Shown here: positions 2,764-34,784 of the stretch, piece after piece
Position numbering within the stretch: the stretch's first letter is position 1
Layout of the letters: every line of letters starts with the position of its first letter
Source: a virus
Length of the DNA: 42,554 bases
Direction: 5' to 3' (one strand)
Virus record (IMG/VR): IMGVR_UViG_3300023179_000203
Span: 1 to 42,554 of that record
Translations under genes and position numbers: made by a program
Notes under the pieces: generated by a model
Seen by the model: only the letters and a program-made list of their open reading frames with translations
What the model was told of the DNA's origin: nothing
The model's database searches: none

Positions 2764-3167
2764 AGAAGCAAACACCCGAGGGAGAACTCAAACGCGGCGT
2801 CATGGACTTCCTCGCGTTGCAACCCGATTGCGTGATCGTCCGCGTTTTCTGCGGCAAGGTGAAGGCGGAACACGGAGGCTGGATACACGGCGCACCCAAC
2901 GGCACGGCGGATTTCGTCGGGCACTGTGCGGGTGTTCCGGTCGCACTCGAACTCAAGGCTAAACGCGGGAGGGCCAGCGGTGAGCAGGTTGATTTTGCCG
3001 CGAAGTGGGTGAAGGCTGGCGGGTGCTTCGTACTGGTCAAGACGCTGGACGACGTGGCTGACGCGCTCATGCGGTGTCGGGAGGTTGCAAGGTTGCGGAC
3101 TAGGTACGCGGCGTTCATGCTTGAAACAGTCGTCAACGGCGCGAGCGTGCGCGGGGGTGAGGCGTGA
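2760..3167 (+). CDS. VRR-NUC domain nuclease
   Basis: 135 residues. Shows the small VRR-NUC (PD-D/ExK) pattern: an early Glu near residue 9, Asp51 in NGTADF, Glu64-x-Lys66 in ALELKAK, and Gln76 in GEQVDF, followed by the usual AKWVKAGGCFVLVKT. Stand-alone VRR-NUC proteins in phages are structure-specific or Holliday-junction-type endonucleases. It lies between two methyltransferase genes, but nothing shows it to be their cognate restriction enzyme. TTG start at 2760 overlaps the methyltransferase stop. Confidence 0.88.
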   Translation: MKKQTPEGELKRGVMDFLALQPDCVIVRVFCGKVKAEHGGWIHGAPNGTADFVGHCAGVPVALELKAKRGRASGEQVDFAAKWVKAGGCFVLVKTLDDVADALMRCREVARLRTRYAAFMLETVVNGASVRGGEA

Positions 3168-4402
3168 TTGATCCCGTTCGCATTCTCGTCGGCGACGTGA
3201 TGGACGGGCTGCGGTCGCTGCCGGATGGCAGCGTGCATTGCGCCGTGACGAGCCCGCCATACTGGGGCCTCCGCGACTACGGCGTCGAGGGACAGATCGG
3301 GCTAGAGCGGACGCCGGACGAGTTCATCGCCAAGATGGTCGAGGTGTTCCGCGAGGTGCGGCGCGTGCTGCGCGATGACGGGACGCTGTGGTTGAACATC
3401 GGGGATTCGTACAGCGGCAGCGGTCGCGGCGGGAATCCTACTGACAGTGAGCACCCAAAACAGGCCACCAATCGAGACTGCATTGTTGGGCAGACGGCGC
3501 GTGATGCGGCGGTAACAAACACTGGTCGGCAAGCGTGCGCCGAACTCGGAATGAAGCCCAAAGACCTCTGCATGATGCCCTGGCGTGTGGCGATGGCGTT
3601 GCAGGCGGACGGGTGGTGGCTTCGCTCGGTGATCGTGTGGGCGAAGAAGTCGCCGATGCCCGAGAGCGTGACGGACCGGCCCACGTCGAGCTGGGAGCCG
3701 ATCTTCCTGCTGGCTAAATCAGCGCGGTACTACTACGACGCGGAGGCGGTGAAGGAGGAAGGCAATCCCGCCAGCGCCGAGCGGTACAAGTATGCATTTG
3801 CAGGGGCGAAGGATGGGCTCTCACGGCCTGACGGTGGGGAGAGGATGTGCCCGGAAGGTATGCGAGACTTTGATGGGAGACGCAACCTCCGCAACGTGTG
3901 GACGCTGGGGCCGGAGCCGTACAGCGAGGCGCACTTCGCCACGTTCCCAACGGAGATCCCGCGCCGCGCGATCAAGGCGGGAACGTCGGAGAAGGGATGC
4001 TGCCCCGCGTGCGGGGCTGGGTGGGTGAGGGTTGTGGAGCGGCGCAACTGCGCCCGCTCGGACGCTACTGAATACGCCAACGGTCTCGGAAACGTAGCAA
4101 CAGCTAGAACACGGACGGCGATGCACTTCGTGGGCGGAGAATCCTGTACCACCGGCTGGCGTCCCGGCTGCGGGTGCGCCGCGGGCGAGCCCGTCCCGTG
4201 CGTCGTACTCGACCCGTTCCTCGGCAGCGGCACCACCGTCGCCGTCGCCCGCGAACTCGGACGCTACGGCGTCGGGTGCGAACTCAACCAGCAGTATGCC
4301 GACCTCGCCCGTATCCGCATCGGCAAGGCCGAGCGGCCTTCGACGTTCGTGGACCCGCGTGAGAAAGACGCGCCGTTGTTTGGGATTGGGGGTGTCGCAT
4401 GA
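3164..4402 (+). CDS. site-specific DNA methyltransferase (N4-cytosine/N6-adenine, SPPY type)
   Basis: 412 residues. Catalytic motif IV is TSPPYW (residues 29-34) and the AdoMet-binding motif I, DPFLGSGTT (350-358), comes near the C-terminus, so the order is the permuted beta class. A cysteine-rich segment before motif I (GCCPACGAGW and RPGCGC) is a likely zinc-binding insertion seen in related phage enzymes. SPPY favours N4-cytosine methylation but does not exclude N6-adenine. GTG start overlaps the VRR-NUC stop. Together with the C5 enzyme it gives the phage two separate DNA modifications. Confidence 0.9.
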   Translation: MIDPVRILVGDVMDGLRSLPDGSVHCAVTSPPYWGLRDYGVEGQIGLERTPDEFIAKMVEVFREVRRVLRDDGTLWLNIGDSYSGSGRGGNPTDSEHPKQATNRDCIVGQTARDAAVTNTGRQACAELGMKPKDLCMMPWRVAMALQADGWWLRSVIVWAKKSPMPESVTDRPTSSWEPIFLLAKSARYYYDAEAVKEEGNPASAERYKYAFAGAKDGLSRPDGGERMCPEGMRDFDGRRNLRNVWTLGPEPYSEAHFATFPTEIPRRAIKAGTSEKGCCPACGAGWVRVVERRNCARSDATEYANGLGNVATARTRTAMHFVGGESCTTGWRPGCGCAAGEPVPCVVLDPFLGSGTTVAVARELGRYGVGCELNQQYADLARIRIGKAERPSTFVDPREKDAPLFGIGGVA

Positions 4403-5420: not shown

Positions 5421-7822
5421 GGATGTTGACCGCCGGACTTCTCTCGTCGTCCGAGATCGAACGCGAGATCGAGATTGAAGCCGAGGCGAAGGCCAACGGT
5501 GCCGCCCGGTACTGGAAGGTCGCCAACCACGCCGTCGAACGCGGCGATGGCGGCGGTCTGGTGCCCGCTCAACGGCTGCTCGTCCACTGGCACACGCTCG
5601 TCTCCGAGGGCGTCCGCGACGAACAGCACGCGATCAAGCGTGGCGAGCCGTCGCACGCTCGCGCGTTGTACGGACCGCCGCTGCTAGAACTTGACGCCGA
5701 CGTTGCCGCCGCGGTCGCCATCCATGAGTTCCTGTCGGTGATGATGCGTGAGCCCGGCGGACTCAACGCGACCACCACCGCCTACCTCGTCGGCCGCGCG
5801 ATCCTCGCCGAGATCAACAGCAACCGCATGGAGACGGAGGACTGGTACGCCCTGCTCAAGCGGTTCCGCCATCGCGTTACCGGAAAGCAAATTATATGGT
5901 GGTCCAAGAAGAAGATGGACCATCCGCTGTTCGGAAAACGGCTCGCCGTGGCGATGGGTGTGCGGCTGCTGTGGATCATGATTGAGGTCTGTTCCGCCGC
6001 ACCGTACAACCAGGATTTCAAACTGGCGATCCACTGGTCGCGGCGGGCGACCAGGCGCGGCCACGGTCAGGCGTGGGTACATATGGACGAAGAATGTCAC
6101 CGCATCATCGCGGAGTCGCACGCCACGCGGCAGTACCTCCACCCGCGGTACCTGCCGATGGTGGTGCGTCCGTACCGCTGGACGAAGGACACCGAGGGCG
6201 GGTACGTCACGATCCGCACGCCGTTGATTTCGAGCCCGACGCGGGATCAAAAGGAATCGTACCGCTCGGCGGACCTGTCCCGTGTGTACGAGTGCCTTGA
6301 CGCCGTGTGCGGCCAGCCGTGGAAGATCAACCGCCGCGTGATGGAGGTCGCCGCCGAACTGTGGCGCGACGGCGGCGGACTGTGCGGTCTGCCCGGCGCG
6401 GACAACAAGCCGCTGCCCGAGAAGCCGTACGACATCGAGACGAACCGCGACGCCCGGCGGAAGTGGCGTCGTGAGGCCCACGACATTATGAAAGCGAACT
6501 TCCAGTCGAAGGCCGACCGGATCATCGCCGACACGGTGCTTCGCGTGGCCGACCGGTTCGCCGATGACGCCGCGATCTACTTTCCACACCAGTTGGATTT
6601 CCGCGGGCGTGCGTACCCGATCCCGCCGGACCTGAACCACCAGCGGTCGGACCTCACGCGGGGGCTGCTGCTGTTCTCTGGTGCGTGTCAACCAGACGTT
6701 CGAGAGCTGCGGATTCATGCAGCCAATATGTTCGGGTTCGACAAGCACACGCACGACGAGCGGGACCGCTGGGCGATCGACAACGCCGCACTCATCGAGG
6801 CCGTGGCGAACGATCCGATTGGTAACGCCGAGGCGTGGGACAAGGCCGACAAGCCGTTCCAGTTCCTCGCGGCGTGCATGGCACTCCACGATGACGAGAT
6901 CGCTGCGCACCTGCCGGTGCAGAAGGACGGCAGTTGCAACGGTCTGCAACACTACGCGGCGATGAGCCGAGACTACTCATCGGCGGTGGCGGTCAACGTC
7001 GCACCGACAGATCGACCGGCGGACGTGTACGCGGCGGTCGCCGAGCGGGTGCTTGCGCTGGTCATGGAGGACGCCCAAGACATCAGCGACACCGACCGGA
7101 TGGCACTCGCCGCGTCGCTTGTTCCGTTGATCGGCCGCAAGGTGGTGAAGCAGCCGGTGATGACCAGCGTGTACGGCGTGACGATGACGGGTGCTCGCGA
7201 CCAGATCCTCGCGCGTCTGCGTGAAACCGGACTGGCCCGCGAAGCGACGTACAAAGCAAGTCAGTACCTCGCTAAACAGGTGATGCGGGCGTTGGCCGAA
7301 ACGCTGGGCGGTGCCTCGCGGATGATGGGGTGGCTCAAGGGGTGTGCAAAAGCGATCACCGAGGCGGGGCACCTTGTAGCGTGGACGACGCCGCTGGGGT
7401 TTCCGGTGGTGCAGCCGTACCGAAAGACGTCATCAATCAGGATTCTCACACACCGCGGTTCGTTCCTCACGGTGTACGAGCCGCCCACGGCCAAGCCCGC
7501 AGGACGCAAACACATCAACGGCATCGCCCCCAACGTGGTTCACTCGCTCGACGCAACACACATGTTGCTCGTCGCCCGCGAGTGTGCCGAACGCCGGATC
7601 TCGTTCGCGTCGGTGCATGATTCATATTGGACGCACTCCGGAACGGCCGAGGAAATGGGCGTGATCCTGCGTGAACAGTTTGCGGCGGTGTACGCCGAGA
7701 ACGTGGCGGACAACCTGCGGCGCGAGTGGATGCGGAAGTTCGGCGTGGACATTCCGGAGCCGCCCGTCGTCGGCGACTTCGACGTGAGAGAGGTGGTGCG
7801 GTCGCCGTACTTCTTTTCGTAG
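5417..7822 (+). CDS. T7-type single-subunit DNA-directed RNA polymerase
   Basis: 801 residues. Synthesises RNA from phage-specific promoters without host subunits. All catalytic motifs are intact: motif A DGSCNGLQH with Asp504 (T7 Asp537), motif B RKVVKQPVMTSVYG with Arg574, Lys578 and Tyr586 (T7 Arg627, Lys631, Tyr639), and motif C VHDSYW with Asp735 (T7 Asp812). FRGRAYPIPPDLNHQ is the conserved pre-palm segment. The short N-terminal extension fits the promoter-binding domain. The ATG at 5417 overlaps the upstream stop; ATG 5423 is an alternative. It is expected to drive the virion genes immediately downstream; I could not identify its promoter consensus. Confidence 0.97.
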   Translation: MRMLTAGLLSSSEIEREIEIEAEAKANGAARYWKVANHAVERGDGGGLVPAQRLLVHWHTLVSEGVRDEQHAIKRGEPSHARALYGPPLLELDADVAAAVAIHEFLSVMMREPGGLNATTTAYLVGRAILAEINSNRMETEDWYALLKRFRHRVTGKQIIWWSKKKMDHPLFGKRLAVAMGVRLLWIMIEVCSAAPYNQDFKLAIHWSRRATRRGHGQAWVHMDEECHRIIAESHATRQYLHPRYLPMVVRPYRWTKDTEGGYVTIRTPLISSPTRDQKESYRSADLSRVYECLDAVCGQPWKINRRVMEVAAELWRDGGGLCGLPGADNKPLPEKPYDIETNRDARRKWRREAHDIMKANFQSKADRIIADTVLRVADRFADDAAIYFPHQLDFRGRAYPIPPDLNHQRSDLTRGLLLFSGACQPDVRELRIHAANMFGFDKHTHDERDRWAIDNAALIEAVANDPIGNAEAWDKADKPFQFLAACMALHDDEIAAHLPVQKDGSCNGLQHYAAMSRDYSSAVAVNVAPTDRPADVYAAVAERVLALVMEDAQDISDTDRMALAASLVPLIGRKVVKQPVMTSVYGVTMTGARDQILARLRETGLAREATYKASQYLAKQVMRALAETLGGASRMMGWLKGCAKAITEAGHLVAWTTPLGFPVVQPYRKTSSIRILTHRGSFLTVYEPPTAKPAGRKHINGIAPNVVHSLDATHMLLVARECAERRISFASVHDSYWTHSGTAEEMGVILREQFAAVYAENVADNLRREWMRKFGVDIPEPPVVGDFDVREVVRSPYFFS

Positions 7823-7835
7823 CGATCCTACGAAA
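7815..7835 (+). terminator. perfect hairpin across RNA polymerase stop codon
   Basis: TTTCGTAG (7815-7822) and CTACGAAA (7828-7835) form a perfect 8-bp stem with a 5-base loop. The left arm contains the polymerase stop TAG and the right arm ends on the A of the next ATG. It could be a weak terminator, an RNA-processing site, or a structure limiting translation of the next gene, which has no clear ribosome site. Confidence 0.5.
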
Positions 7836-8353
7836 TGAACCAAGCGGCCAACCTACCGCGCACCGTCACCGTGTACTTCTGTAGTTACGTCGGGGAGCGA
7901 TTCGGACTTGGGTGGTGGATTGAGTTGTTTACCCGCTGGGAGATCACGCACGTCTGCATCGGTGATGGCGAGGTTGTGCTGGATTCACTTGACCGCGGCG
8001 ATAGGTTCTGGCCGCAGACAGTGTTTGAGGACCGATACCCGATCGCACGAATCGCCGTTGATATCGACGTCGAGCGTGACCCGCAACTGGAGATTGTTGG
8101 ATGCCGACCGAAACCCCGTAACAAGTGGCTCAGGTTGATCCGGTGGGCAACGTTCGGGTTGACACCGGTAGACGACTGCGTGTCGTCGGTGGCGAAGGCG
8201 TTGCGACTTGCTGGCGTGGACGTTCCGCGTCGCATCACAACGCCCGGAGAGGTGTGGGATCTGCTACGGCCGTACGGCCGCGTGAGGATGATGGATGGCG
8301 ACGTATACCCAATGGACTCAATTGGACCGCACGACGCTGCAGGCGGTCCGTGA
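7835..8353 (+). CDS. papain-like (NlpC/P60-YiiX type) peptidase-like protein
   Basis: 172 residues. His39 in ITHVCI and Cys113 in TPVDDCVSSVAKALRLAG, followed by TPGEVWDLL, give the order His then Cys seen in permuted papain-like proteins of phages. WWIELFTRW near residue 27 is hydrophobic. Possible roles are cell-wall or protein cleavage during entry or lysis; no other endolysin is visible in the genome, so this is one candidate. The start codon lies in the hairpin that spans the polymerase stop. Confidence 0.6.
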   Translation: MNQAANLPRTVTVYFCSYVGERFGLGWWIELFTRWEITHVCIGDGEVVLDSLDRGDRFWPQTVFEDRYPIARIAVDIDVERDPQLEIVGCRPKPRNKWLRLIRWATFGLTPVDDCVSSVAKALRLAGVDVPRRITTPGEVWDLLRPYGRVRMMDGDVYPMDSIGPHDAAGGP

Positions 8354-14556: not shown

Positions 14557-16878
14557 ATGCCAATCCAGCAATACAACCCCAAGACGTACGGCGTCCGGGG
14601 CGACGGAATCACCAACTGCACTCGCGGGCTTCAAATCCTCCTCAAGCAAATCAGAGACGACGGCGGCGGCACGCTGGAACTGAACACTCCCGGAACATAC
14701 CTCATCAGCCGTACCACGGCGACCAGCGGCGAGTTCTCCGACAACACGGCGCTCAACTCCGCTCTCGTGATCTACTCGAACACTAAGTTCATTATCGGCA
14801 AGGGCGTCACGCTCAAGCTGGAGGCGGGGTCAAACTGCTCGATGCTCCGCAACTATGGCGCGCGGGTTTCCACCGCAACGCCGGACACGGGCATTGAGAT
14901 TGATGGAGGCGTGTGGGACTACAGCGCTTCCAGCGTGTTTGCAGACGATTTTACCAGCAACGCGGGCGGAACAACGATCACCAAGACCGGCGCGTTCGCC
15001 AACTACACATTCCGCCGCGGCGACGCGTTCCGCTACCGCCTATTGGACAACAGCGGGTTCGGACAGGTCTCAGTCATCGCCAAGAACTCGGACAACACTC
15101 TGGCCATTGACGCACTGCCCGCCTCGCTGCGCGGCATCTCCACGGTGTACGGCACGGTCAACCAGCAGGACCAACTCATCACGTCCGACGCAACAACGTC
15201 GAACATCGGCAACGGAATCTTTCTCAAGAACTTCCGCCAGTGTGCGGTTCGCAATATCGAAATCCGCAACACGCTCAAGTTCGGCGTGTACGCCTGCACG
15301 TTCTCCGAGTCGGAGTTCAATAACATCGACGGATACAACCCCAGCGGCGGGGCCGACATCTTCCACGTCAACGGGCCAGCAAACAACTTCCGCGTCGAGA
15401 ACATCCGCGGATTCAGCAACGACAACATGGTCGGCCTCATCATGGGAGAGGGCACGTACGGAAACGGCTACGCCTTCACGACCGCGACACACACCACGAT
15501 CACTTACAACGCGACCAACAAGACGCTCACGCTCGGCACCGGGGTCTGGCCAGCGACGATCATCACCGGGGCCCGTTTGCGACTGACGAGCGGAACGGAC
15601 GTCACCGCCGGTGAGCGGCAGGCCGCGACCGTGGTCAGCGGTCAGGGCACTGCGACGCTCACGCTGTCGGCGAAGCTCCGGAAGAACGGCGACACCGCCG
15701 ACGTCAACACCGGCGGGACCGACATCCAGGGGCACGTCGAGGGCATCTACTCGTACCTCGGCGACGAGGGAGACATCAAGGACTGCGTGGTTGACGGCAT
15801 CCACGCCAGAAACGACACCAAGTCGTTCGAGCCGTTCCGCATCAGCGGCCCGCTCGGAACCACGGCGTCCGGAATCCGTGTGGCAAACATCACCGGCGAC
15901 ATCTCGTCGGGCTCGGCGGTGTCGTTCATCGACGACGCGGCGTACGGGCTGTCGGGCTGGGTCGGACGCGGAATCTCAATCGACAATGTGTCGGCTCGCA
16001 TCATCCGGCAGAACTCGGCCTTCTCTGACCTCAACACGCCGACCATCAGCATCACCGCGACCGGCCTCAAAGACCTCACCATCCGCAACCTGACGATCGC
16101 CAACGACAACGCTGCGGCGCGCTCGGTTGCCAACTGGGGCATCACCGTTGCGTCGGGCGTGGCAATGGAAACCTTGTTCGTCGATGGCGTAACGACGTTG
16201 ACTCCGTTCGCCTCAACAAACGCATGCCATTTCCTCAGCCTTGCGGGCAACGTCAACAACGTATTCATCAACAACGCGCATATCAGGGCGGGCGTGAACG
16301 GTCGCTTCGTGAATTTTGCAACCGGCTACGTCGGAAGCGTGGCGATCAACAATTCACGCTGGGAAGGCACGTCTGGCGCTGACGCCTACGGATTCAACTG
16401 GACAGGTTCCGGCACGTCTCGGCTGATGCTGGACAACTGCGTCATCGACAACGGCGGAACGAACGGATACGGGTTCTTCTTCGCAACCAGTTGTTCCGCC
16501 ACCGTTACGCTCATCCTCAACAACACCGAGTTCCGCAACCTGTACCGCGTCATGGATGTCGGAGGGGCCACCACCGTCAGCGTCACAATCCGCGGAACAG
16601 GCGTGACGTTCACCAACATCAACAACTCCGTCGTCGGCATTGGTGGCGGATCGGGAACATATACGCTGCTGACCTCGTTCAACCCCGACTGGCAGATGCT
16701 CGGTGAGCGCACGAGCGGTACGCAGCCGAAGGGCGCTGTGTTCACCAACACATCAACGGCCACATCAGGCGGCTCTCCATCTACGAACTGGAACACCGTG
16801 GGCGGCTCTGCGGGTCACGGCCTCGGGCAGGTCATCTACAACGGGACCGCGTGGGAGAAGTGGGGACGGACGGCATAA
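14557..16878 (+). CDS. tail spike / receptor-binding protein with pectate-lyase-like beta-helix
   Basis: 773 residues. The opening YNPKTYGVRGDGITNCT...L is the classic start of the pectate-lyase superfamily beta-helix in phage tail spikes. The middle shows repeated rungs rich in Asn, Gly, Ile and Val (IRNLTIANDN, VAINNSRWEG, LMLDNCVIDN). The C-terminal part (GHGLGQVIYNGTAWEKWG) is a short end domain. It would bind, and perhaps degrade, a host surface polysaccharide. T7 has its fibre gene after gp16; here the spike is placed between the head and tail-tube genes. Confidence 0.88.
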   Translation: MPIQQYNPKTYGVRGDGITNCTRGLQILLKQIRDDGGGTLELNTPGTYLISRTTATSGEFSDNTALNSALVIYSNTKFIIGKGVTLKLEAGSNCSMLRNYGARVSTATPDTGIEIDGGVWDYSASSVFADDFTSNAGGTTITKTGAFANYTFRRGDAFRYRLLDNSGFGQVSVIAKNSDNTLAIDALPASLRGISTVYGTVNQQDQLITSDATTSNIGNGIFLKNFRQCAVRNIEIRNTLKFGVYACTFSESEFNNIDGYNPSGGADIFHVNGPANNFRVENIRGFSNDNMVGLIMGEGTYGNGYAFTTATHTTITYNATNKTLTLGTGVWPATIITGARLRLTSGTDVTAGERQAATVVSGQGTATLTLSAKLRKNGDTADVNTGGTDIQGHVEGIYSYLGDEGDIKDCVVDGIHARNDTKSFEPFRISGPLGTTASGIRVANITGDISSGSAVSFIDDAAYGLSGWVGRGISIDNVSARIIRQNSAFSDLNTPTISITATGLKDLTIRNLTIANDNAAARSVANWGITVASGVAMETLFVDGVTTLTPFASTNACHFLSLAGNVNNVFINNAHIRAGVNGRFVNFATGYVGSVAINNSRWEGTSGADAYGFNWTGSGTSRLMLDNCVIDNGGTNGYGFFFATSCSATVTLILNNTEFRNLYRVMDVGGATTVSVTIRGTGVTFTNINNSVVGIGGGSGTYTLLTSFNPDWQMLGERTSGTQPKGAVFTNTSTATSGGSPSTNWNTVGGSAGHGLGQVIYNGTAWEKWGRTA

Positions 16879-16890
16879 GGAACGCCACCA

Positions 16891-17700
16891 GTGACCAAAC
16901 TCGAAGCCGTCAACGAGATCCTTGAGAAGGTCGGCGAGCCGCCGATCTCCGCGCTGGACACCAACGGCACGAGCGAAGCGGCCGAGGCAGAAACCATCCT
17001 CGACCGCGAGACGCGACGCATCCTCCAAATCGGCTGGGCCGCTAACACCTACAAAGACTACCAGCTCTACTACGCAGATACCGCGATCCCGGTGACCGGC
17101 ACCGGAACGTTCACGTACCGCGAAACCGTCTCGCAGGCGGTCTCGGGTGCCACCGGACGGTTCGTCTACATCAACGGCTCGACTCTCTATCTCCGCAGGA
17201 TATCAGGAACGTTCGACAGCTCGAACCTCATCACCGGACAGACCAGCGGCGCAACGCGCACGGCAAACGGAGGTGTCGTCACTACCACCACCGGGCGAAT
17301 CGCGGTGCCTTCAACGTGGTACAGCGTCAGGCCGGGCCCGTCCAGCGGGAACGTCACGTTCTCGCTCAACGGCGTCTACCTGTTCAATACCACCGACAAC
17401 GCCAACACGTTCGATTGGGGCGCGGACATCAAGGTCGATGCCATCGTGTCGGTCACGTTCACAGACCTCACGTACGCGCTGGCCGATCTCTGCGTCAAGT
17501 CCGCCTCGCTCGCCTATGCCCGCTACAAGAAACGTTCCGGCGTGGACGAGCAACTGCTCCGCGACGAACTCGACGCGGCACGGGCTCAGGCCAACCGCGA
17601 GAACAACGACATGGCCGCGATCAATCTGCTCAACACCGCACAAGCCCGCCGCGTCACCGGCAACCGCCGCGACGCCAGCGCGTATTTCGGAGGCGTGTAA
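16891..17700 (+). CDS. tail tubular protein A (T7 gp11-like)
   Basis: 269 residues from GTG 16891. The start KLEAVNEILEKVGEPPISAL and the helix AETILDRETRRILQIGW are diagnostic of T7 gp11-type gatekeeper proteins. Compared with T7 gp11 (196 residues) it carries an extra beta-rich insertion of about 70 residues (TFTYRETVSQAVSGATGRFV ... TRTANGG). The C-terminal helices (LCVKSASLAYARYKKRSGVD) dock on the portal. The stop overlaps the next start (TAATG). Confidence 0.93.
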   Translation: MTKLEAVNEILEKVGEPPISALDTNGTSEAAEAETILDRETRRILQIGWAANTYKDYQLYYADTAIPVTGTGTFTYRETVSQAVSGATGRFVYINGSTLYLRRISGTFDSSNLITGQTSGATRTANGGVVTTTTGRIAVPSTWYSVRPGPSSGNVTFSLNGVYLFNTTDNANTFDWGADIKVDAIVSVTFTDLTYALADLCVKSASLAYARYKKRSGVDEQLLRDELDAARAQANRENNDMAAINLLNTAQARRVTGNRRDASAYFGGV

Positions 17701-18158
17701 TGGCCGGATACTGGACCAACCGGGCGTGCAAGCTCGCCCTCAACATTCTGTTCCGCGGCGCGACCGCACCAACCTCGTTCAAGCTCGCCCTCGTCAAGTC
17801 CACCGCGACCATCAGCGAGGACACAAACGTCTGGTCAGACGTGTCCGGACAGGAAATCGCCGCGGGCAACGGCTACACCGCTGGCGGGCAGACCATCAGC
17901 CGCAACTCCACCGACTTCGACACGCTCACAGAGGACGATACGCTCAACCGCGCCGTCGTGCTGCTCAAGGACATTTCGTGGACCGCATCGGGTGGACCGA
18001 TCCCCGCGTCCGGTGGTGGGGCCCGCTACGCCGTCCTGTACGACTCTGGCGGCACCAATGAAGTGTGGGCGTACTTCGACCTCGGATCGGACCGCACCAT
18101 CAGCACCGGCAACACGTCCACCATCATCGACGCCACCATCGGACTCAAGAAACCGTGA
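17700..18158 (+). CDS. phage structural protein (tail-associated)
   Basis: 152 residues. MAGYWTNRACKLALNILFRG, FKLALVKS, GQEIAAGNGYTAGGQ and DDTLNRAVVLLKDISWTASG are blocks of a widespread beta-rich phage virion protein found near tail or capsid genes. Its place between tail tubular A and B indicates a tail or decoration role. Translationally coupled on both sides (ATG 17700 overlaps the gp11-like stop, and its own stop overlaps a GTG). Confidence 0.75.
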   Translation: MAGYWTNRACKLALNILFRGATAPTSFKLALVKSTATISEDTNVWSDVSGQEIAAGNGYTAGGQTISRNSTDFDTLTEDDTLNRAVVLLKDISWTASGGPIPASGGGARYAVLYDSGGTNEVWAYFDLGSDRTISTGNTSTIIDATIGLKKP

Positions 18159-20656
18159 GTAGATTTGAGCAACGCACGCCGCTCGTCACCGGCGGGATCT
18201 CTCGCCAGCCGGAACACGCAAGGCTGCCCAACCAGGTCGCCGATGCCGTCAACGCACAGTTCAGCGTGGTCAACGGCATTACCAAGCGGCGCGGATCCTG
18301 GCACATCGCCTACGTCGGCTCGTACCCGTCCACGACGGACCTGCGGATGCACGCAATCAACCGCGACCAAGGCGAACAGTACATGCTCGTCTACGGCGAA
18401 GGCGTCGTCCGCGCGTTCCGCGTCGGCGGCGTCGAGGCTACGGTCGGCGCGTCCACAGAGGCCACCGCGTACCTCGGCACGACCGGCGGCTCGGACCTGC
18501 GGCTGCTCACCATCGCCGACTACACGCTCATCCTAAACACGGATGTAGCACCGGCTACGGAAGCATCGCCGTCCTACACCGTCGATAAGGTGTTCCGCGA
18601 CTACGACACGCTGACATCATGGACACCAACCAACCAGACGTACCACCGCACCAACAAAGATACTGACACAACGCCGCGGGGATACTACTACTACGACACC
18701 ACCGGAGGCACATTCGCAACGTGGGTGAGCGCGGGGTTGAGCGGAACGCAGGCCAGCGTCACCGGCGACTACGACGACGGTGACAAGAACCCCGGCGGGT
18801 TCACCATCACCTGCCGCGCGGGTGTGTCGATCTCCGGCGCGGCGTGGAACGCGACGAATCGCACCATCACCAAGACCGGCGCGTTTGCGTTCGGGACGTT
18901 CCAGTCCGGCGACACGATCAACGTCACCGGCGGGACCGGATGGACGCCCGGCAGCTACGCGATCTCGTCGCACGACAGCGACGATCAAATCACGCTCTCG
19001 GCTGCGGCCGGGCAACCCGGCGCAAACAACACCGACACCGCGATCAACCAGATCAACGTCGCCCGCGCCGTTATCGCCGACTTCACCACCGTCACGCTCA
19101 CGACGATGGAGGATGTTGCCCTTGAGTTCAAGCGGGCCGCAAGGTCCAGCGGGCTCCCCGACCTGTGCGTCGCGTGGAACGAAACCGGCTCGGGCACCGG
19201 AACGTTCATCGTCACCGGGCAGTACCGCGGCAGCGGCTCGACCATCGTATCGTTCACCGCGCCGCCCGCTGGCAACTACGACTGGTCGTCGGCGGGACGC
19301 CCGTTCAACGGCGGAACCGTCACCGCGGGCACGGGCTCGCCGTCGTCGCCGGTCAAACCCGTCCTCGAACGATGGACGCGCGTTGCCGCGCCGGGGCAGA
19401 CAAACGCCGCGTTCCGCAAGTCCACCATGCCGATCACGCTGCGACGCACCACGGTCAGCAGCAACGCGGGCATCCCGTCCACGTTCGATCTCGGCGTGAC
19501 CGATTGGTCGGACCGCACGTCTGGCGACGACGACACCAATCCACCTGTATCTTTCCTACGAGAGAGTTCTGCTCTGACCGACATCGCGTTCTACCGCGAT
19601 CGGCTGGTCCTCACCAGCGGCGAGAAGATCGCCATGTCGCAGACCGGCGACCTGTTCAACTTCTGGATCGGTGACGCCAACAACATCGTCGATTCGGACC
19701 CGATCGACATTTCGCTCTCGTCCGAGGAAGTCACCTCGATCGAGTTCGCAGTTCCGTTCCGAAAGACGCTCGTGCTGTTCACGCTCGCGGGCCGACAATT
19801 CGAGATTTCGTCCGCCGACGAACTCACCGCGTCGAAAGTGTCCGCCACGCCAACCACGGTGTACAAGACTCCGCCAGCACGACCGCACCGGCTCGACTCG
19901 CAGCTCTACTTTGCGGCGAACTCCAACGACTACGCGACGCTCATGGAATACATCTATGACGATGTTCGCGTCGCATCTGCCGCCGAGGATGTTGGCATCC
20001 ACATCCCAGGACTCATCCCGCCGAACATCATCGCCATCGAGACGTTCCAGAACGACCAGGCCGTCGTGGTCCTCCCGTCTGGTGGCAACGTGCTATACGT
20101 CTATGAAATGTACAGACAGGCGGACGGAACCAAGCAGCAATCGTCCTGGACGAAGTTCGTGTTTGACAATTGCTACACGATCAAAGACATCGCCGCCATC
20201 GACTCGTACTGCTACATGCTGGTCGAGTGTGATGGAGAGTGGAGCATTGAGCGGTTCAGCATGAGCGAACCAGCCGAGGGCGAGGATCTTGCGTCGGACG
20301 TCACCAGCGAGTACCCGATCGAGCCCGACGAAGCACTCGCCAGCGCGTACACCGAAGCAACGTGGAATCTCGAAACAATGCTCTCCGTCAGCCCCGTCTA
20401 TGCCGACGTGTTCGTGGACGCGACGTACTACGACCCGTCATGCACGATCTGCTCGGCCGGATCCTATCCGCTCGCTGCCGGTTCGTGCCCGTGCTGCCCC
20501 GGCACGTACGACTACTACGACGGGCTCGGCAACCTCGTCGTCCTTCCGCTGTGCCGCTGCGAGAAACTTGGCGACGTAGACCCCGTGTTCGACTACTACA
20601 GCTGCTGCTGGGACGACGGAACGTACAACGCCTCTGGCGTACCATATGCCTGTTGA
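18155..20656 (+). CDS. tail tubular protein B, N-terminal part (T7 gp12-like), with Cys-rich tail
   Basis: 833 residues from GTG 18155. The start (SRFEQRTPLVTGGISRQPEH, NAQFSVVNGITKRRGS) and the body (LTDIAFYRDRLVLTSGEKIA, DPIDISLSSEEVTSIEFAVP, LYFAANSNDYATLMEYIYDD) match T7 gp12-type nozzle proteins. The last 75 residues are foreign to that family: about ten cysteines in CTIC, CPCC, CRC and CC groups. The proper C-terminal part of gp12 seems to be encoded separately at 21242-21823. Confidence 0.9.
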   Translation: MSRFEQRTPLVTGGISRQPEHARLPNQVADAVNAQFSVVNGITKRRGSWHIAYVGSYPSTTDLRMHAINRDQGEQYMLVYGEGVVRAFRVGGVEATVGASTEATAYLGTTGGSDLRLLTIADYTLILNTDVAPATEASPSYTVDKVFRDYDTLTSWTPTNQTYHRTNKDTDTTPRGYYYYDTTGGTFATWVSAGLSGTQASVTGDYDDGDKNPGGFTITCRAGVSISGAAWNATNRTITKTGAFAFGTFQSGDTINVTGGTGWTPGSYAISSHDSDDQITLSAAAGQPGANNTDTAINQINVARAVIADFTTVTLTTMEDVALEFKRAARSSGLPDLCVAWNETGSGTGTFIVTGQYRGSGSTIVSFTAPPAGNYDWSSAGRPFNGGTVTAGTGSPSSPVKPVLERWTRVAAPGQTNAAFRKSTMPITLRRTTVSSNAGIPSTFDLGVTDWSDRTSGDDDTNPPVSFLRESSALTDIAFYRDRLVLTSGEKIAMSQTGDLFNFWIGDANNIVDSDPIDISLSSEEVTSIEFAVPFRKTLVLFTLAGRQFEISSADELTASKVSATPTTVYKTPPARPHRLDSQLYFAANSNDYATLMEYIYDDVRVASAAEDVGIHIPGLIPPNIIAIETFQNDQAVVVLPSGGNVLYVYEMYRQADGTKQQSSWTKFVFDNCYTIKDIAAIDSYCYMLVECDGEWSIERFSMSEPAEGEDLASDVTSEYPIEPDEALASAYTEATWNLETMLSVSPVYADVFVDATYYDPSCTICSAGSYPLAAGSCPCCPGTYDYYDGLGNLVVLPLCRCEKLGDVDPVFDYYSCCWDDGTYNASGVPYAC

Positions 20657-21245
20657 GTGCGTCAACCGCACCGCCCACGGGTGCATCGACATCGACAACA
20701 GGCTCGGGTGGAAGCACGGCACGTCCGAACAGACGTGCGCCGTGTGCCTCTCGCTCGACGGACCCACCGGCGAACACGCGGAGAAGTTCCGCGAGCAGCA
20801 CGCAGCGAAGGTCGTGGAACTCACCGTCCGCATGACAGACCGCGCCGGGCCAGACGTACTCGCCGCACTCAGGGACAAGCACGGCGTCAGCGTGGACGCC
20901 AAAGACCTACGGGACAAACAGCATGCACGCGACGGATGGCAACGCGCCAAGTTCTCATGGAGCCGTGCCGCGGCGTTCGCCAAGTCCGCGCTCTCCACGC
21001 TCAACGGATCGGCGGACGAGCAGACCAGAAACACACGATGGATCTCTTGTACCGGCCGAAACCTTGCCGGTGAATTCGTATCTGATCCATGCCCTTCGCT
21101 TCGTGAACTCGACTCGAAACTCTACTGCGGATCGTGCGGGTGCGGCGTGAGTGAACTGTCCCGCCTCGACCGAAAGATCGAGTACCAGTACCTCGAATGT
21201 CCCCGCCGACGTGCGGGGTTCAGCAACGCGGAGAAACACGCATGA
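20646..21245 (+). CDS. Cys-rich putative zinc-binding protein inserted in gp12 region
   Basis: 199 residues; ATG 20646 overlaps the gp12-like stop by 11 bases. Cysteine pairs at both ends (CVN...GC, CAVC; then CGSCGCG and LECPRRR) suggest two zinc sites or disulfides around a helical core (EHAEKFREQHAAKVVELTVR). The end, SELSRLDRKIEYQYLECPRR, looks like a conserved module in small phage proteins, but I cannot name it. It lies exactly between the two halves of the tail tubular B protein, which suggests a virion component. Confidence 0.7.
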   Translation: MPVECVNRTAHGCIDIDNRLGWKHGTSEQTCAVCLSLDGPTGEHAEKFREQHAAKVVELTVRMTDRAGPDVLAALRDKHGVSVDAKDLRDKQHARDGWQRAKFSWSRAAAFAKSALSTLNGSADEQTRNTRWISCTGRNLAGEFVSDPCPSLRELDSKLYCGSCGCGVSELSRLDRKIEYQYLECPRRRAGFSNAEKHA

Positions 21246-21823
21246 GCCTGTTTCCATACCCGGTGCGGCTGGATCGCCGCGTCATCGCGGTCGGCTCGTA
21301 CGTCCAGCCGTACACCACATGGCACGTTCACTTTCCCGACGACGGGATCAACCGCATCGTCCTGTCCAGCTACTTCGGTGCGTCCGCCGGTGCCGTCCTA
21401 GTGCCGTCGTCCGTCGTCGTCAGCGGGTCAATCACCTCGATCACGGTCGGCGGTGACTACTCGGCAGGTCCGGTGATGATCGGAAAGACGTACCCGATGC
21501 GGGTGCAGCTCACGCGGCCGTTCATACGAGACGCCGAAGGGCACGCCGACTTCTTCTCGTTCACGTCCGGATCGGAGATCCGTACATCCGACAAGGACAG
21601 CGGACGCTACACGATCCGGGCGGCACGCGAGGCACCGCCCACGCGGGCGGATCGAACCAAGACCACCGGGCAGGCACTCGGCAGCATCCGCGACCGCGGC
21701 ACGCTCCGGGCGTTCTTTTCGGGCGACTCGTCAAAGACCACCATCACCCTCGAAGGCGACGACCCCACGCCGGTCAACATCGCGGGCGTCGAACACATTG
21801 GCCAGTATGAAGCACGGAGGTAG
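21242..21823 (+). CDS. tail tubular protein B, C-terminal part (split gp12)
   Basis: 193 residues. The order of features is that of the end of T7-like gp12: PYPVRLDRRVIAVGSYV, FPDDGINRIVLSS, a VVVSG strand, GKTYPMRVQLTRPFIRD, a DSGRYTIRA strand, and finally ITLEGDDPTPVNIAGVEHIG then QYEARR, corresponding to the terminal strand that ends gp12. It starts with its own ATG overlapping the previous stop. Presumably made as a separate polypeptide that completes the nozzle with the N-terminal part. Confidence 0.75.
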   Translation: MSLFPYPVRLDRRVIAVGSYVQPYTTWHVHFPDDGINRIVLSSYFGASAGAVLVPSSVVVSGSITSITVGGDYSAGPVMIGKTYPMRVQLTRPFIRDAEGHADFFSFTSGSEIRTSDKDSGRYTIRAAREAPPTRADRTKTTGQALGSIRDRGTLRAFFSGDSSKTTITLEGDDPTPVNIAGVEHIGQYEARR

Positions 21824-21825
21824 GC

Positions 21826-22311
21826 ATGGGCGTTGAAACCGCGATCCTGCTGGCGGCTGGTGCCACCGCAGCGCTAGGCGGGTACGCCTCGTATGAACAG
21901 GCACGACGACAGAACAACGCCACCCAGCAGACCCAAAGGTCGGTCGTTCGGGCGGCAGAGATCCAGTCGCAACAGGTCGCCCAGGCCGCGGCCACACAAC
22001 GACAGGACATCGTTCGCAAAGCACAGCTTACCCGCGACCGCATCCGCATCCTGCAGGGCGAGAGCGGACTCTCCGGTGGCTCGTACGAATCGCTCGACCG
22101 CCAGGTTAGCGCCGACGCACAGAACTCGTACGCGCGGCTCGACACCGAATACGTCAACCAGCTCAACCGCGTCAACTCTGGCATGGAGGCCGACCTCGCT
22201 CGGCTGCAGGGCCAATACACCAACAGCGTTCTCGCCGCACTCACCGGCGGACTCGGCGGCGCAAACACCGGCTTGTCCCTCGGGACCGGCGTACGGAACA
22301 TCATCCAATGA
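21826..22311 (+). CDS. internal virion protein B (T7 gp14-like)
   Basis: 161 residues. Starts with a hydrophobic Ala-rich segment (residues 4-22, ETAILLAAGATAALGGYAS), then a long amphipathic helix rich in Gln, Arg and Ala, then GLSGGSYESLDRQ and a Gly-rich end. This matches gp14 in size, order and position (after gp12, before gp15). Such proteins leave the head during infection and form a pore in the outer membrane. Confidence 0.85.
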   Translation: MGVETAILLAAGATAALGGYASYEQARRQNNATQQTQRSVVRAAEIQSQQVAQAAATQRQDIVRKAQLTRDRIRILQGESGLSGGSYESLDRQVSADAQNSYARLDTEYVNQLNRVNSGMEADLARLQGQYTNSVLAALTGGLGGANTGLSLGTGVRNIIQ

Positions 22312-33614: not shown

Positions 33615-34784
33615 ATGGGCCAGAAGTATCCCGGCGTCAAGGTCACCCGCGACCGCGAGTCATGGCGCGCGGTATGGTTCGATTCAACGGGGAGGCGGCG
33701 GCGCAAGCGGCTCGGCAACTCCGAGACGATGAGCCGGGCCGAGGCCGAACGTCGCGCGCTCAAGTTGCAGCAGGTGCAGCTCATCTGCCCCGGATACCGC
33801 GACGGGCCCGCGATCGTGCCGACGATCACGGCGCACGTCCGCGAGTACGTGACTCGCCGCGGGCCCGAGATCGGCGACGCCGCCCGCAAGTGGATCGAGA
33901 TGACGCGGGCCCAGCTCGTCGCGTGCTTTGGCGACGTGCGGCTCGATGCGCTCACCCGAGACGGAGCGGGGAGGCTGGTCGTTCACCTGCGGCAGCCCCG
34001 GCGTGACGGCACGCTCCGATCGGAGTGGAGCGTCAAGGGGTACATCACGGTTGCCTCGCGCCTGTTCGAGGACGCCCGCAAGCGTGACCTCATCCCGATC
34101 AACCCATTCGACCGGCTGAGAGTGAAGGTCGCCAAGATCGAACGGGACTGGCGGTACGTCACGCTCGCCGAGCTGGACCGCATCCTGGCCGCGTGCCCGG
34201 ATGCTTCGTGGCGTGCGTTCTTTGGGCTACTCAGGCTCGCGGGGCTGCGGCTTGGGGAGGCTCGCCGGTTGACTTGGGACCGGATCGACTGGGAGCGGCG
34301 TACGTTGACCGTGGTGCCACGCGAGGGCAAGGTGACGACCAAGCAGCGGACTCGCGTGGTGCCGGTCCAGCCGAGGCTGTACGCCCTTCTGCGTGAGGCG
34401 TTCGACGCGGCCGCGCCGGGCTCGCGGTACGTGTCGCCGTTCTGCAAGAAACCGAACACGGTTGGCCGAGAGATCGTGGTGCGTGCGGGGCTGACGCCGT
34501 GGGCCAAGCTGTTCCACACGCTCAGAAAGAACCTCGTGAGCGATTGGCAGGCGGTCTATCCGTCGCTGGACGTGGCCGCCTGGCTCGGGCACGATGTTCG
34601 CGTCGCGGCCGACCACTACCACCAGACGCTCGACACGAGCATCGCGGCGGTGACTGGGGAGGCGGCGCAGGCACCGGCACCGGCCGCGGACGCTGACCTG
34701 CGGTCCGAGATCGCCGACCTGCGGGCGATGGTGTCCGCGCTGGTGTCCCAGTTGCGTCCCGCCGCGGGACACGAACGCCCGTAA
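33615..34784 (+). CDS. int: tyrosine-type site-specific integrase
   Basis: 389 residues. The catalytic set is complete: Arg212 in GLRLGEARRLTW, a Lys in the beta-hairpin near 247 (REGKVTTKQ), His301 and Arg304 in FHTLRKN, His326 in WLGHD and Tyr335 in ADHYHQ. The N-terminus has a basic arm-binding-like part and a core-binding domain (about 70-180); the C-terminus adds a coiled coil after Ala/Pro repeats. It would recombine attP with the host tRNA-Thr gene. The attP core lies 17 bases downstream. AAGGA site before ATG 33615. The FHTLRKN and WLGHD style is familiar to me from planctomycete integrases. Confidence 0.95.
   Translation: MGQKYPGVKVTRDRESWRAVWFDSTGRRRRKRLGNSETMSRAEAERRALKLQQVQLICPGYRDGPAIVPTITAHVREYVTRRGPEIGDAARKWIEMTRAQLVACFGDVRLDALTRDGAGRLVVHLRQPRRDGTLRSEWSVKGYITVASRLFEDARKRDLIPINPFDRLRVKVAKIERDWRYVTLAELDRILAACPDASWRAFFGLLRLAGLRLGEARRLTWDRIDWERRTLTVVPREGKVTTKQRTRVVPVQPRLYALLREAFDAAAPGSRYVSPFCKKPNTVGREIVVRAGLTPWAKLFHTLRKNLVSDWQAVYPSLDVAAWLGHDVRVAADHYHQTLDTSIAAVTGEAAQAPAPAADADLRSEIADLRAMVSALVSQLRPAAGHERP

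Follow-up and report, generated by a model that had tools for sequence, protein, structure and literature searches.

A gp12-type nozzle encoded as two chains, with a probable cargo site at the break, in uncultivated T7-like phages

In the T7-like phage represented by the complete IMG/VR record IMGVR_UViG_3300023179_000203 (42,554 bases, hereafter the window), the nozzle of the gp12 type, or tail tubular protein B, is by its sequence encoded as two polypeptides with cysteine-rich parts at their junction, as an earlier note on this DNA had proposed. Proteins of the T7 gp12 family form a hexameric ring in the virion tail, and a single polypeptide is usual, without being formally defining. Since the nozzle retains DNA under pressure and has to open when contact is made, it would be expected among the least alterable parts of the virion. 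The explanation which we favour as a whole, and which we consider probable, is that a gp12-type nozzle is both encoded and assembled as two chains, and that the break between them is a cargo site in a clade of such phages. The genes and parts concerned, all on the forward strand, are listed below, with lengths in amino acids (aa) and model confidence as the predicted local distance difference test (pLDDT).

18155–20266, forward strand: gp12-like part of the nozzle N chain, residues 1–704, with the N-terminal platform strands, beta-propeller and tip (PF25675, PHROG 457, AlphaFold2, Foldseek)
20267–20440, forward strand: acidic linker of the N chain, residues 705–762, without nozzle homologue, past the last modelled propeller strand (695–702) and of low pLDDT
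20441–20656, forward strand: ten-cysteine C-terminal module of the N chain, residues 763–833 plus stop codon (10 Cys in 71 aa)
20646–21245, forward strand: separate Cys-rich gene, 199 aa, with CxxC and CxxCxC motifs (zinc-ribbon-like by eye) and 10 Cys in its translation
21230–21233, forward strand: GGAG, the likely Shine-Dalgarno site of the C chain by its sequence, with a like site at the C-chain start in loci L013 and L092
21242–21823, forward strand: nozzle C chain, 193 aa, with the fibre dock and C-terminal platform, equivalent to T7 gp12 residues ~581–794 (PF25675, PHROG 457, AlphaFold2, Foldseek)

The N chain (18155–20656, 833 aa) begins with a GTG codon and matches the Pfam family Phage_nozzle, PF25675, with E=3.6e-96, the best stretch stopping at profile position 611 of 794, while its match to PHROG 457 (E=1.2e-96) covers that profile to position 621. 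Its AlphaFold2 model is confident up to residue ~705, the end of the last strand, whereas residues 717–833 mostly have a pLDDT below 50. In Foldseek searches this model matched the T7 nozzle with E=7e-36, and its top structural matches are nozzles that also head the list for the C chain. Since no confident model extends past ~705, the C domain is not already contained in the 833-residue protein. The gp12-like part, which reaches profile position ~611, is followed by the ten-cysteine tail that the earlier note had described, with all ten cysteines (763, 766, 778, 780, 781, 800, 802, 817, 818 and 833) in the last 71 residues (binomial P ~4e-13 against a 0.4% cysteine frequency in other virion proteins). 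No Pfam, PHROG or NCBIfam family matched this module. Being covalently part of the N chain, the Cys-rich tail is plausibly present in the virion.

The C chain supplies what the N chain lacks. It matches PF25675 at positions 590–790 (E=3e-9) and PHROG 457 at positions 591–790 (E=1.5e-16), and the profile of this region aligns with T7 gp12 residues 581–794, so that both chains jointly cover PF25675 from end to end (N chain to ~611, C chain 590–790, of 794). The AlphaFold2 model, made from 73 aligned sequences, has a mean pLDDT of 94.1 and contains several antiparallel strands in succession besides a short helix. Searched with Foldseek against the PDB, it returned phage nozzle chains as all of its top 16 matches, with a best E of 1e-9 and template modelling (TM) scores to the query of 0.64–0.77 for the closest 14; the nozzles in this list are those of E1004, P-SCSP1u, Kp7, HRP29, T7, PhiM1, Kp9, Carin-1 and LME-1. 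The gene thus encodes a gp12 C-terminus, as had been supposed, and a structural match for the 193-residue protein exists where its absence would have spoken against the proposal. Platform, propeller, tip and fibre-dock folds are all found across the two chains, in models made separately and not as an assembly. On these profiles and models, the N and C chains are best described as complementary halves of a gp12-type nozzle.

Between the two halves lies the separate Cys-rich gene (20646–21245), whose presence directly after the N chain had also been noted correctly. It overlaps the N gene by 11 nt, and the ATG start of the C chain lies within its stop codon (an ATGA overlap). GC content by codon position in this gene resembles that of both neighbours and is much alike across all three genes. 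The ten cysteines of the 199-aa protein (P ~1e-8) form motifs that suggest metal binding. No homologue was found in phages, viral contigs or 14 related records, and its family matches were at chance level, with no recognisable virion domain; an endonuclease domain was likewise absent from the window cargo, the best PHROG match having E=0.16. By analogy with the glycosyltransferase (GT) and methyltransferase genes that occupy the same slot in relatives, the 199-aa protein may serve or modify the N-chain module; it may equally be a passenger, and it may be non-structural.

The same break recurs in related phages. Single-sequence scans of viral contigs with the N chain, the 199-aa protein and the C chain found nothing, and relatives were obtained by alignment-based scans of IMG/VR (L-numbers denote the loci compared). 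Both chains are visible, with the same break, in nine other records (L013, L092, L171, L172, L203, L205, L208, L215 and L218), and in L012 and L212 the N chain is seen on contigs that stop before the C chain. The N chains stop, and the C chains start, at T7 residue ~580–590, which we read as the boundary between propeller and fibre dock. The C chains of the relatives share 32–40% identity with that of the window and start just ahead of an LDRR motif. The relative frame of the two chains varies, and all three frames occur among the split nozzles; the earlier note had observed that the C chain resumes in the original frame, which is true of the window, but the shared frame is a coincidence and carries no information.

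In contrast to its position, the content of the break differs from phage to phage. A Gly-Ser repeat linker and a module of ~200 aa are followed in L013 by GT9 and Methyltransf_24 genes, and a Thr/Pro-rich linker and a Cys-rich module in L171 by a GT2 gene. L092 has a module of ~250 aa, L172 a Ser/Gly linker and a module, and L203 and L205 a Kelch tail of 317 aa, while L208 carries a 96-aa gene and L218 (L218:9406–14029) ~4.8 kb with genes of 297, 101 and 1143 aa, the product of the last having the appearance of a multi-domain tail protein. L215 has no cargo, its stop and start codons overlapping as a bare TAATG junction. If L203 and L205 are counted separately, seven out of ten records in which both chains are visible have a C-terminal N-chain module of 129–317 aa, as does L012, with a linker-type stretch rich in Ser, Gly, Thr or Pro ahead of the module in L013, L171, L172 and L012. 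BLAST comparison among six tails (window, L013, L092, L171, L172, L012) revealed no mutual similarity beyond low-complexity repeats within L012. Labels such as LamG-like or holin-like, considered for some of the cargo, were given by eye and found no support in Pfam. The Cys-rich insertion had been put forward as the cause of the split; this part of the proposal fails, because the same site is broken in L013, L092, L171, L172, L203/L205, L208 and L218 with other cargo and in L215 with none. The break is therefore ancestral or recurrent, and on the sequences compared it is the conserved feature, the Cys-rich parts being the cargo of this phage and one kind among many. At the level of alignment, the split, its conserved position, its recurrence and the diversity of its cargo are well established.

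Further irregularities occur elsewhere in the nozzles of this group. L012 has a second cut, at residue ~60 (L012:4775–5590 and 5587–8006), between the platform strands and the propeller; the upstream piece carries the platform strands, Ser-rich repeats and a Cys-containing module, the next protein is the propeller part, and this second chain ends at the contig end in (SSSEPA)n and a Cys motif. The loop at residues ~60–120, where L012 is cut, has a Gly-Ser insert in L013, and in L092 (L092:7980–10463) it holds a motif that by eye resembles one of ~60 aa, VSQAVSGATGRF...SGATRTANGG, inserted in the adaptor of the window (16891–17700). In L015 (L015:5959–7446), whose contig ends within the nozzle, the propeller core is preceded by an inserted additional domain that looks LamG-like by eye but has no match in Pfam. 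The single-chain nozzle of L221 (L221:6908–11191, ~1428 aa) has large insertions at the tip region (397–644) and within the fibre dock (953–1281), so several loops of the nozzle can accept insertions in this group.

Evidence on selection comes from L203 and L205, which are distinct assemblies with about 95–97% match in aligned blocks. The ratio of nonsynonymous to synonymous substitution rates (dN/dS) is 0.13 for the nozzle part and 0.28 for the Kelch tail, and the C chain has 0 nonsynonymous and 9 synonymous changes; judged by these values, both chains are under purifying selection in this one lineage. When a maximum-likelihood tree was built from the nozzle columns, the split rows came out together in one group of 19 rows (97/95), seven of which are single-chain, and the split label requires 3 changes, compared with a mean of 9.4 when shuffled. 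A single clade of split nozzles, considered on a 107-row tree, was weakened by added relatives that place single-chain members inside it. Either a single origin followed by re-fusions or recurrent fission at a single permissive site is consistent with the tree. The single-chain near relatives (L204, L209/L210/L211, L217, L180 and L221) share the clade and the break-site context with the split members, but have one continuous gene with just 11–18 residues between the aligned break flanks. Some 220 loci with complete single-chain nozzles (a number of them duplicates) were screened alongside, and any other interruptions seen were isolated cases: an in-frame TAG in L032, overlapping frames in L272 and, in the phages collection, a 2-nt deletion in Klebsiella phage VLC6. 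L032 was rejected as a minimal split, because its frame is continuous but for the TAG and lacks a new start codon where one would be needed; the TAG (L032:5974–8025) lies a few residues ahead of the break site of the split clade and may be a sequencing error, a case of suppression or a fresh lesion. The cultured or fosmid-cloned relatives jiawei, BB8 and S28C10 have single coding sequences (CDSs), as do the deposited phages checked (not exhaustively), except for the lesion in VLC6, and a non-exhaustive literature search found no description of a two-chain T7-type nozzle.

The way in which two chains could form one nozzle is suggested by the architecture of T7 gp12, which runs from 45 residues of platform strands through the propeller with its inserted tip to the fibre dock and again the platform, the platform barrel taking three strands from the 45-residue N-terminus and the remainder from the C-terminal part (PMC6702177). 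In the window, the N chain would contribute the beta-propeller and nozzle tip along with the first strands of the platform, and the C chain the fibre dock and the remaining platform. With three of the barrel strands located in the N chain, the shared barrel would hold the chains together, and a covalent link between propeller and fibre dock would be unneeded. The break would also give the N chain a free C-terminus near the outer surface, and this end, with the gene slot behind it, would constitute the cargo site of the clade: N-chain tails would be displayed around the level of the fibre dock, probably for binding the host surface, and the cargo genes would modify or serve the displayed module. 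Co-assembly of the two chains in the virion, display of the cargo and the servicing role of the cargo genes are what we infer from this arrangement. In T7, the N-terminal anchor of the fibre protein gp17 (PF03906) sits between the adaptor and nozzle docks. It was not found in four records searched for it, those of the window, L013, L203 and L215, which may be incomplete, whereas the T7 control was matched with E=5e-77; arms borne on the nozzle could thus have a part in host attachment.

Several observations weigh against this explanation. The near relatives L204, L209, L217 and L180 have single-chain nozzles, so the split is not required, and since the split members L208, L215, L218 and L212 have no N-chain module, the break does not serve for display in every case. 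A non-structural character is suggested for some cargo genes (holin-like by eye, or with a weak hydrolase match), L171 and L172 have no obvious Shine-Dalgarno site ahead of the C chain and would rely on coupling, and the AlphaFold2 models represent each chain and not a complex. A more far-reaching version, to which we give only tentative credence, would make the break a dedicated, exchangeable display socket, in which tethered binding arms (Cys-rich, Kelch or beta-rich), six per particle, replace the classical T7 fibre in attachment; some would have mucin-like or Gly-Ser linkers, possibly modified by glycosyltransferases of the same slot, and the L012 nozzle would consist of three chains with a second arm.

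The serious rival likewise accepts a real two-chain nozzle, but grants the break no display role: it would be a tolerated hot spot for insertion, its cargo passengers (morons) and its tails by-products or protective caps. The great diversity of the cargo, which includes enzymes and holin-like genes, the four tail-less split members and the lack of a recognisable virion domain in the 199-aa protein speak for this reading; it accounts less readily for sizeable C-terminal modules in most of the both-chain records and in L012, for linkers typical of tethered domains in L013, L171, L172 and L012, for purifying selection on the Kelch tail, and for the failure to find the T7 fibre anchor in four records. 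We regard the hot spot as possible, yet doubtful. It is also conceivable that the nozzle proper no longer needs the C chain, which would by now be a protein in its own right, for instance a fibre adaptor; the chain does hold the fibre-dock region and can diverge freely. Such independence is improbable, as the C chain keeps the whole adaptor-contacting platform region, its gene remains in the gp12–gp14 setting in all split genomes checked, and the same domains are fused in the single-chain relatives L204 and L209.

Two further possibilities would leave no two-chain nozzle at all. One is that the parts end up as a single chain after all, whether through a self-splicing intron, through an intein or split intein, or through programmed frameshifting, as might be thought from the resumption of nozzle sequence past the insert and from the common frame of the N and C parts in the window. 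Rfam revealed no group I or II intron near the junction (20000–21900, relaxed threshold), however, and no intein family was among the Pfam matches of the three window proteins or of the cargo and tails of the relatives. Moreover, the genes overlap tightly and have their own starts, sometimes with Shine-Dalgarno sites, the junction frames vary among relatives, the bare TAATG junction of L215 leaves nothing to splice out, and the cargo is fully coding with the codon-position GC of the genome, all of which makes rejoining very improbable. An assembly error, a sequencing error or a decaying gene confined to this contig has precedents in the isolated lesions of VLC6 and L032, but these sit elsewhere and are of a single base or 2 nt; the present break recurs in nine other IMG/VR records, C chains diverged to 32–40% identity retain an ordered start and nozzle motifs, and those of L203 and L205 show no nonsynonymous change. 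Artefact or decay is in practice excluded by this recurrence and selection. The assembly of the nozzle from two chains, with the break as a cargo site, accordingly remains the explanation that we prefer.

The surroundings of the nozzle genes are those of the T7 gp12 family, with the order adaptor, nozzle and gp14-like gene, and the window encodes a T7-like set of phage RNA polymerase and T7-type portal, capsid, adaptor, gp14-like and terminase proteins. The adjoining genes are the following.

16891–17700, forward strand: gp11-like tail adaptor (Tube), adjoining upstream (PF17212 E=7e-19, PHROG 446)
17700–18158, forward strand: 152-aa protein in the interval between adaptor and nozzle (PHROG 644, a family without assigned function)
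21826–22311, forward strand: gp14-like internal virion protein, after the C chain (PF24072 E=1e-9)

In T7, gp14 follows gp12 and gp13, and by sequence a gp14-like gene is in the matching position in seven other split genomes. The 152-aa protein has kin in Caulobacter, Mycobacterium and Xanthomonas phages. A tailspike-like gene is still present in the window (14557–16878, PHROG 2234), as are DNA methylases of the C5 (2059–2763) and N6/N4 (3164–4402) types, and a Phage integrase family protein (33615–34784), which in a T7-like genome points to a temperate or pseudotemperate phage. A scan of genome contigs yielded a single Pseudomonas single-chain nozzle and nothing else, and no host is inferred from it.

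In these uncultivated T7-like phages, a core part of the virion would have been turned into a swappable attachment site: their clade appears to have a two-chain nozzle that is always cut at the boundary of propeller and fibre dock, the cut being used for docking unrelated proteins. Such a nozzle would show how a discontinuous platform barrel can survive fission, and it raises the testable structural question of whether the barrel alone is sufficient to hold the nozzle. Should it be true that the arms bind hosts, this would be another receptor-binding architecture in short-tailed phages. Annotation of gp12 homologues is also affected, since the C piece is easily labelled 'hypothetical' and the N piece called complete.

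Among known systems, the closest is the T7 gp12 nozzle itself (PF25675, PHROG 457; PDB 6r21 and 7ey7), with which the window shares all domains in order, the neighbourhood of an adaptor before and a gp14-like gene after, and the folds matched by Foldseek. It differs in that the nozzle is distributed over two chains, broken at ~residue 580, each gene having its own start and stop, in the addition of a C-terminal N-chain module and of cargo genes in the break, and in that the classical fibre anchor was not found. Homing-endonuclease insertions by gp12 in Przondovirus (Klebsiella phage KN4-1, PRA1340) likewise place a foreign gene at a gp12 border, but in KN4-1 the inserted gene lies beside a gp12 that is whole and undivided, whereas the cargo of the window has no endonuclease domain. 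The nozzle of Klebsiella phage VLC6 (MT197176.1 26365–28723, locus L285) is likewise annotated as two CDSs, the second of which, named 'tail spike', is the nozzle C-terminus; compared with the intact VLC5, however, it has its 2-nt deletion inside the propeller, an isolated lesion without the conserved site or the cargo that characterise the split nozzles described here.

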